Source of the DNA: an uncultured Pelagibacteraceae bacterium
GTDB lineage: Bacteria > Pseudomonadota > Alphaproteobacteria > Pelagibacterales > Pelagibacteraceae
Assembly (NCBI GenBank): GCA_902598015.1
Contig: CACJZT010000002.1
Coordinates: forward strand, 120,199-184,198
DNA: 64,000 nucleotides
Direction of reading: 5' to 3'
Of this stretch, positions 22,230 through 24,927 are shown piece after piece; position 1 is the first letter of the stretch, and every line of letters starts with the position of its first letter. Below the pieces are notes generated by a model. It searched no databases, was not told the DNA's origin, and saw only the letters and a program-made list of their open reading frames with translations. A program made the position numbers and the translations under genes.

Positions 22230-22706
22230 ATGGATAAAGAACCAATTACTACTGAAGGATTAGAAAAATTAAAAAGTGAATTAATTTTTTTGAAAGAAAA
22301 AAAGAGACCCGAAATTGTTGCAGCTATTGCTGAAGCAAGATCACATGGAGATTTGAAAGAAAATGCTGAATATCATGCAGCAAAAGAACAGCAATCTCAT
22401 AACGAGGGAAGAATTCAAGAAGTTGAGGATTTAATTGCAAGAGCAAATGTAATTGATATCACCAAGATTAGTAATGATGGGAAGGTGATTTTTGGATCTA
22501 CAGTCTACCTTCAAAATTTAGATACAAATGAAAAAATAAATTACAAAATTGTTGGTAAAGACGAGGCAGATCTAAAACAAAAGCTTCTTTATTTTCAATC
22601 ACCAATAGGAAAAGGTCTTATAGGTAAAAATAAAGGAGATCTTGTAGAGATAAATACACCAGCAGGGACAAAAAATTTTGAAATTGTAGACGTAAAATAC
22701 GTTTAA
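22230..22706 (+). CDS. greA: Transcription elongation factor GreA
   Basis: [35 protein letters not shown]. Confidence 0.97.
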
Positions 22707-23974
22707 TTTGATAAAACTTTTTCCATATCTTTTTTTGATAAATTAAAATTATTTTCAATCCATTTCATTTCTAAATTTTTTAATTTTTGACCCAATTCCC
22801 TTCCCTCCTTTAATCCATAATCATTTATTAATAACTGAGCTTTTATTGGAAATTCTGGTTTATCTAATTTTTCAAAGTAAGTTTTTAATTCTGAAAGTTT
22901 TTTACTTTGTTTAAAATATAATAAATTGAAATCAATTAAATCGATTGTGCTAGATTTACCCTCATAATAAAATATTTTTTGTAAATCTTTCTTGTTAAAA
23001 ATTTTAGTACTATCTTTATTTAGCGAATTATTTTTTAGAAAATTAATTTTATCTTTTAACTCATTGGGTAAATTATATTTATACACAAAATAGTCAGAAT
23101 TGTCAGTTTCATCGATTACAAGAAAAGAAACGACGAAATTTAAACTTTTATTTTTTAATATCTTTTCTTGTGGTTTTGATAACTTGCTCAATTTTTTAAA
23201 ATTTTTTAGTTGAGGGAAAATTAATGAAAATAATTCACAAGAGGTTTTATTTTTAAATAACTTTAAAAAGTTATCCAATTTGAGAATTTTTTTTAATTCA
23301 TTGAATTGTCTTTCTTTTGATATTTTTCCTAAACCCTCTATATTTTTTTTAATGATTTTTATTATATTAATTTCATGATCGATTTTGCTATATTCAGTAT
23401 AAAATCTTAAATATCTAATAATTCTTAAATAATCTTCTTTTATTCTAGTTTCTGGATCACCTATAAATTTAATTATTCCAACATTTAAATCTTTATGACC
23501 AGAATTTGGATCATATAAATTACCGTCTAAATCTGAATATATTGAATTTATTGAAAAATCTCTCCTTAATGAATCTTCCTTCCAATTAGTTGTATATTCT
23601 ACGACAGCATGCCTTCCATCTGTTTTTACATCTTTTCTTAATGTTGTAATTTCAAAATTTTGATCATCAATCACTGCTGTGATTGTGCCATGTTCAATTC
23701 CTGTTTCAAAAAACTTTATTTGGTTTTTATCTAAACATTGCCTAACCTGATCAGGGGTTAAATTAGTTGCAAGGTCGATATCATCTGTTTTTTCATCATT
23801 TAAAATTTTTCTTACGCAACCACCAACATATCTAATCTCGCTGGTTTCATTGTGGTTATTTATTGCACCAAATATTTTATTTACTCCCTTATTATTTTTT
23901 AAATCCAGAAATTTGAGATCTTTATCGCTTGAAATTTTTTTGTTTTGAAAAATTTTTTTAAGTAAAGCTTTCAT
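22703..23974 (-). CDS. cca: CCA tRNA nucleotidyltransferase / poly(A) polymerase family
   Basis: [26 protein letters not shown] nucleotidyltransferase motif; [29 protein letters not shown]. Confidence 0.93.
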
Positions 23975-23977
23975 AAA

Positions 23978-24052
23978 TGGCTGGGGTGCTAGGATTCGAA
24001 CCTAGGAATGGCGGTACCAAAAACCGCTGCCTTACCACTTGGCTACACCCCA
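23978..24052 (-). tRNA. tRNA-Gln (TTG anticodon), CCA encoded
   Basis: Minus strand: TGGGGTGTAGCCAAGTGGTAAGGCAGCGGTTTTTGGTACCGCCATTCCTAGGTTCGAATCCTAGCACCCCAGCCA folds as a cloverleaf; 7-bp acceptor stem, TTCGAAT T-loop, anticodon TTG, 3' CCA. Confidence 0.95.
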
Positions 24053-24084
24053 AGATGTTTTTCGTATAACACAAAAAAAAAGCT

Positions 24085-24927
24085 TTATATAGTTTTAGAG
24101 TAAATACACCAATAGTTTTTATATTTATTTTTTAATTTTTTTTGAGCTTTTATTGCCGCATTTTTGGTTAAAAAATAACCAATTATAGTCGAACCCGAGC
24201 CTGTCATATTTGCAAAGTAAATATTATCTAAATTTTGCAAATAACTTTTGATTCTTCTTAAAATTGGATATTTATTAAAAGCTGCTCTCTCTAAATCGTT
24301 ATTCGAAACTTTTAATAAATCTTGTCTGTTAATGTTGTTTGATTTATGGAACAGGCTCTTTGAAAATCCTCTGTGTTTTGCATAAATCATCTTAGTAGAA
24401 CATCCAAAATTAGGCTTTATTATTAACAAATGAAAATTTAATTTTTTATTAATTTTACTTATATTTTGCCCTTGTAGGATCATTGGACTCTCATAAAGAC
24501 CCAAAATTACATCTGAACCAACTTTATTTGCAATTTCAATTAAATTATTTTTTGTAGTTTTAATTATTCTTTTTTTAAATAGGTAGTTCAAAATGGATGC
24601 TGCATTCATAGATCCTCCCCCCATACCAGAAGATTGGGGTATATTTTTTTTTACTTTGATATTGAATTTTTTATTTTTAATATAATTTTGATCATTTAAG
24701 ATTTTTAGTAGTTTTGAAATTGTATTTGTATTTGAAATATTTGAGGAAAATTTCCCACTAAACGATATTCTATTTTTTGAACCTTGTGTCTCTTTTATTA
24801 AAATCTCATCAGCCAAATTGATCTTAGATATTAAACTTTCGATTTTATGATAACCATTTGAGTATTTATTTAAAATTTTTAAAGTTAAGTTTACTTTTGC
24901 AAATGATTTTATTTTATGAAACTTCAT
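24085..24927 (-). CDS. ispE: 4-diphosphocytidyl-2-C-methyl-D-erythritol kinase
   Basis: SFAKVNLTLKIL...GYHKIESLI, IPQSSGMGGGSMNAASIL, MTGSGSTIIGYF (GHMP kinase). Confidence 0.93.
   Translation of the reverse strand: MKFHKIKSFAKVNLTLKILNKYSNGYHKIESLISKINLADEILIKETQGSKNRISFSGKFSSNISNTNTISKLLKILNDQNYIKNKKFNIKVKKNIPQSSGMGGGSMNAASILNYLFKKRIIKTTKNNLIEIANKVGSDVILGLYESPMILQGQNISKINKKLNFHLLIIKPNFGCSTKMIYAKHRGFSKSLFHKSNNINRQDLLKVSNNDLERAAFNKYPILRRIKSYLQNLDNIYFANMTGSGSTIIGYFLTKNAAIKAQKKLKNKYKNYWCIYSKTI

Follow-up and report, generated by a model that had tools for sequence, protein, structure and literature searches.

In Pelagibacteraceae (SAR11), the gene of the CCA-adding enzyme, cca, lies directly behind the gene of tRNA-Gln. 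In our view this arrangement is best explained, with a probability of roughly 0.6, as a tRNA-mRNA dicistron made by genome streamlining, in which the tRNA would punctuate a cca message that has no Shine-Dalgarno site. The starting point was a 64,000-nt stretch of DNA (the window) from a genome of this family that is 80% complete and whose nearest matches are single-cell genomes of the same family. The original prediction that tRNA-Gln ends 3 nt before the cca ATG was borne out by ARAGORN (Table 1). On the minus strand the junction reads ...CACCCCAGCCA-TTT-ATGAAAGCT, the encoded CCA occupying 23980-23978, and the tRNA-Gln (G000:C2:144179-144250) scores above the Rfam RF00005 cut-off. Upstream, 32 nt separate the tRNA from the stop codon of ispE, which is the upstream neighbour also in G001, in the sister-family genome G002 and in g3. 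On the far side, the 3' ends of greA and cca overlap by 4 nt, and the position of greA is kept in G002 and g3.

Table 1. Features at the tRNA-Gln/cca junction, in window coordinates
Feature	Position	Strand	Basis
ispE, upstream gene	24085..24927	-	ORF and family search
Extended -10 TGTTATACG of the putative tRNA-Gln promoter	24063..24071	-	Consensus match only
tRNA-Gln(UUG)	23978..24052	-	ARAGORN; Rfam RF00005; cloverleaf in fold
3-nt spacer TTT, CCA end to cca start codon	23975..23977	-	Sequence reading
cca, CCA-adding enzyme (tRNA nucleotidyltransferase), 423 aa, ATG	22703..23974	-	ORF and family models
greA, convergent with cca	22230..22706	+	ORF and family search

The start codon of cca is secure, because the ATG at 23974 is the first in-frame ATG, GTG or TTG past the upstream stop, inspection of the 423-aa ORF found no second one near the N-terminus, and every intact cca junction in relatives uses ATG. 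The conserved downstream start that could have undone the predicted geometry is thus not seen. The product carries both the class II nucleotidyltransferase head and the RNA-binding domains, exceeding the Pfam cut-offs for PolyA_pol (PF01743) and PolyA_pol_RNAbd (PF12627). Since the NCBIfam equivalog models match below cut-off (PRK13299 at 184 bits against 290), its putative specificity, CCA-adding as opposed to A-adding, is assigned by homology only. In four genomes, each of the 117 tRNAs examined has its CCA encoded, so Cca presumably serves repair. Genus g4 has three cca matches, of which two (G146 and G032; L122, L123) contain internal stop codons, two TAA in one and a TAG plus a TAA in the other. 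All three g4 matches span a shorter stretch than elsewhere, and those of G146 and G032, both near-complete genomes, do not extend beyond the N-terminal two thirds; in these genomes cca may be in decay or may have been replaced.

We surveyed the gap by locating tRNA-Gln with ARAGORN, together with the start codon that follows, in two sets of relatives that may share a few genomes. It is 3 nt in 57 of 57 close-relative loci. Among 43 divergent loci from across the genus, whose cca genes share about 50% identity, 39 have a gap of 3 nt, one has 4 nt and three have 5 nt. The variable gap in close relatives that would have spoken against the original prediction therefore did not occur. Seven of the eight other Pelagibacteraceae genera sampled have gaps of 3-12 nt (3-4 in g7 and g9, 4 in g8, 4-7 in g6, 6-7 in g5 and g2, 6-12 in g4). 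Since the junction persists while the Cca protein diverges to 36-50% identity, chance is a poor explanation for it.

The spacer itself is conserved unevenly. When 45 genus loci are placed on a tree computed from the flanking ispE and cca sequence, position -3 changed at least 15 times and position -2 at least 10 times, similar to nearby third codon positions (mostly 7-12 changes), and gap length changed at least twice; position -1, by contrast, did not change at all, being T in 45 of 45 loci. Because of this invariance next to the turnover at -3 and -2, and because, in two genomes of the genus, T stands at -1 before no more than 35-45% of the unambiguous starts, selection appears to maintain the U at -1 of cca. 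It might allow UAUG to extend its pairing to A37 in the initiator tRNA, or might be preferred for cleavage. An invariant T at -1 as a general mark of genes abutted by tRNAs was considered and rejected, hisS having mostly A there. As a separate observation, the acceptor stem of this single-copy tRNA-Gln reads TGGCCCA... in some genus members (L140, L142, L143, L144) rather than TGGGGCG or TGGGGTG, which is a multi-base change.

The sequence of events that we envisage is as follows. RNA polymerase would start just upstream of tRNA-Gln, in the genus on an extended -10 promoter, and would read through into cca, as neither a terminator nor a promoter lies between the two genes. RNase P and a 3' endonuclease, for which RNase E is the likely candidate, would then excise the tRNA, leaving a cca message that starts 0-3 nt from its AUG and is translated without a Shine-Dalgarno site. 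Genome streamlining would account for the arrangement: genes between tRNA-Gln and cca would have been lost, and the leader could shrink to 3 nt unopposed because the translation system rarely uses such sites. For SAR11 the median intergenic distance is 3 nt (PMC2704228). What the sequences show is the geometry of the junction, its conservation, the want of space for a leader, the recurrence of the pattern and the gene order of the outgroups; co-transcription, cleavage, the choice of enzyme and translation of the cleaved product are what we infer from them. Release of a near-leaderless cca mRNA by 3' cleavage, as had been proposed, is plausible, while translation before cleavage could also take place through transient unfolding of the tRNA. 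It is tempting to go further and speculate that tRNA excision is a routine source of near-leaderless mRNAs in Pelagibacteraceae, and that the U at -1 of the tRNA-cca junction is needed for cleavage or for Shine-Dalgarno-independent initiation, which would make translation depend on tRNA maturation; we put this forward as a tentative idea, with the odds against it.

As to the cutting enzyme, five complete relatives carry RNase E/G, and no RNase E match was found in the window's own genome, 80% of which is covered. RNase Z was rejected for this role, as its matches are weak and none reaches the cut-off in six genomes. RNA-seq of P. acnes points to cuts a few nucleotides downstream of tRNAs with encoded CCA (PMC3848588). 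Given the presence of RNase E/G, the lack of an RNase Z match over cut-off and the inference made in P. acnes for such tRNAs, a cut by RNase E in the AU-rich spacer, just past the CCA, fits. In folding calculations the free 5' region, UUUAUG..., has almost no structure, and the intact tRNA folds at about -28 kcal/mol and ends 7 nt before the AUG. A tRNA folded so close to the start would be expected to hinder the 30S subunit, making cleavage before translation the more likely order.

The strongest competing explanation is plain compaction, whereby initiation takes an ordinary route that needs no Shine-Dalgarno site, on a tRNA-cca transcript still uncleaved or with its tRNA partly unfolded, and cleavage merely destroys the message. 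Starts independent of a Shine-Dalgarno site are indeed common in SAR11 genomes: the core motif precedes only 3-15% of unambiguous starts in four of them, although these percentages rest on simple start calls with which the controls themselves reach only 25-30%. The folded tRNA would, however, sit in the upstream part of the 30S footprint. The comparison of tRNA neighbourhoods, made with simple ORF and start calls in four SAR11 and two control genomes, bears on the same question. Same-strand gaps of at most 12 nt between a tRNA and the next coding sequence make up 5/14, 7/16 and 11/17 in three Pelagibacteraceae genomes (range 1-12) and 3/13 in G002, whereas two other Alphaproteobacteria, of which one has a genome of 1.39 Mb, have none (0/16 and 0/13), their smallest gaps being 13 and 24 nt. 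For 23/47 against 0/29, Fisher's test gives p = 1.2e-6, a value uncorrected for shared ancestry of the junctions. In SAR11 and the 1.39-Mb control alike, opposite-strand genes end within 0-12 nt of tRNAs, as compaction would have it. Yet this control, equally tight on the opposite strand (0-11 nt), keeps its same-strand gaps at 13 nt or more, so compaction alone is insufficient to account for same-strand junctions of 1-12 nt. We therefore regard this reading as unlikely, though it deserves more weight than those that follow.

Alternatively, cca could have a promoter of its own inside ispE or the tRNA gene, with the tRNA merely serving as 5' UTR; intragenic promoters are common in bacteria generally. 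Nevertheless, we consider it improbable. No promoter-like match was found on the minus strand at 23900-24200, and none on that strand meets the stricter two-hexamer rule. The GC-rich 3' half of the tRNA has no -10-like sequence at the needed spacing, and any transcript starting upstream of the tRNA would make the tRNA as well. A cca promoter or Shine-Dalgarno sequence would have to lie within the tRNA's own 3' arm (CACCCCAGCCA), which tRNA function holds fixed. With the 16S tail, the 19 nt preceding the cca ATG form an unfavourable duplex (+1.2 kcal/mol), that is, there is no Shine-Dalgarno site, and no terminator-like site was found on the minus strand at the junction. In favour of a start upstream of the tRNA, the TTATAC proposed earlier as a -10 is present, but is better read as part of an extended -10, TG-T-TATACG; the end of its hexamer, TATACG, lies 10 nt ahead of tRNA-Gln. 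In 100 of 100 genus loci TGnTATA occurs 9-11 nt upstream of tRNA-Gln, and in g5, g6, g7 and g9 the distance is 9-14 nt. The motif is absent upstream of the tRNA in g2, g4 and g8; since no promoter-like element precedes the tRNA in these genera, their transcript may begin further upstream, with ispE. A NUDIX identity for the gene upstream of the tRNA in these three genera was ruled out, as ORF and family searches identify it as ispE. In other words, the two genes lie on the same strand with a putative promoter upstream of the tRNA and no terminator between them, as in bacterial tRNA-mRNA dicistrons. At the level of sequence there is thus good support for a tRNA-Gln-cca dicistron that leaves no space for a Shine-Dalgarno site, as the original prediction had it: the pattern is family-wide and no separate cca promoter or Shine-Dalgarno site was found.

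The outgroups suggest how the two genes came together. In G002, TPR, ispE and tRNA-Gln are followed by AhpD-like, CrcB, exo/endonuclease-like, MaoC-like, DUF1285 and CoA pyrophosphatase genes and then by cca, with convergent greA and hemF beyond; the outer order ispE-tRNA-Gln-...-cca-greA is common to G002 and the window. In g3 a single acetyltransferase (GNAT) gene lies between tRNA-Gln and cca. The gap from tRNA-Gln to the next gene is 15 nt to the AhpD-like gene in G002, 17 nt to GNAT in g3 and 3-12 nt to cca. In other loci of the sister family (f2) the sequence upstream of cca reads as the C-terminus of CoA pyrophosphatase. No tRNA was found within 1.5 kb upstream of cca in f2, nor within about 1.5 kb of cca in 27 loci of other Alphaproteobacteria. 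Because G002 keeps several genes, and g3 GNAT, between tRNA-Gln and cca, the adjacency probably arose through loss of intervening genes in Pelagibacteraceae.

These same arrangements ruled out a functional tRNA-Gln/Cca pairing as the leading idea; that these two genes became partners seems to be accidental, a by-product of gene loss. The least probable of the readings is regulatory coupling, in which binding of Cca or a tRNase to the tRNA-Gln-cca precursor would make cca expression a readout of the state of tRNA 3' ends: Cca must bind the tRNA acceptor end, here 3 nt from its own start codon, and the persistence of the junction and its invariant -1 base would suit such a role, but the same architecture precedes unrelated genes, tRNA-Gln in g3 and the sister family precedes other genes with cca elsewhere, gene loss explains the adjacency, and with CCA encoded in all tRNAs tRNA-Gln is no special substrate of Cca. 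The special link between tRNA CCA ends and Cca, physical or by feedback, that was originally envisaged finds little support, given that the same kind of junction is found before hisS (TIGR00442, over cut-off), an NDUS4-like gene and others; nor does tRNA-Gln stand out among the checked tRNAs in respect of CCA.

The streamlined tRNA-mRNA dicistron that we favour has a close counterpart in the tRNA punctuation of animal mitochondrial transcripts (Ojala et al. 1981, as cited in PMC4633059). In both, a tRNA directly precedes an ORF with no room for a leader, the 5' end of the mRNA is expected at the 3' end of the tRNA, and the pattern is genome-wide rather than confined to one locus; in SAR11, too, the tRNA 3' end lies a few nucleotides from the start with no promoter between. 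The differences are that SAR11 is a free-living bacterium with encoded CCA and many separate promoters instead of one polycistron, and that cleavage is predicted to involve RNase E and exonucleases, whereas mitochondria use RNase Z (ELAC2). The tRNA-mRNA operons of E. coli, such as thrU-tyrU-glyT-thrT-tufB and leuU with secG, likewise combine a tRNA and a protein gene in one transcription unit, but there leaders with ribosome-binding sites extend over tens of nucleotides, in contrast to 1-12 nt in SAR11. Leaderless mRNAs of mycobacteria and Propionibacterium (PMC4633059, PMC3848588) resemble the predicted cca message in beginning at or near the start codon without a Shine-Dalgarno site; however, their 5' end is a transcription start, whereas that of SAR11 would be a processing product, the leaderless geometry at cca being expected only after cleavage. 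In the open literature we found no report of the tRNA-Gln/cca junction and no SAR11 transcription start maps, which is weak evidence.

SAR11 cells are among the most abundant in the ocean. Should roughly one to two thirds of the same-strand junctions between a tRNA and a gene in these cells yield leaderless mRNAs made by processing, tRNA maturation would be mechanically coupled to housekeeping genes (cca, hisS and others), and streamlined bacteria would have reached a solution thought typical of organelles.

Among the other junctions, tRNA-His lies 3-6 nt before hisS in 24 of 24 Pelagibacteraceae loci (L305-L328) and does not adjoin hisS in four f2 loci. The window's own genome has tRNA-His(GUG) before hisS, its cognate synthetase (G000:C6:20605-20683). 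The tRNA-His that precedes hisS varies strongly within one genus, with several unlike backbones (L305, L314, L315, L319, L321), and the window's genome has a hisS that resembles copies from its own genus (50-56%) no more than those of other genera (53-58%). The tRNA and hisS may have been replaced together; co-transfer of the pair into SAR11 was considered by Wang et al., according to the discussion in PMC3937112. Even tighter junctions occur in G001 (L216) and G003 (L187), where the gap is 1 nt between tRNA-Leu(CAA) and the ATG of a 515-aa ORF and 2 nt between tRNA-Glu and the ATG of an 84-aa ORF, respectively.
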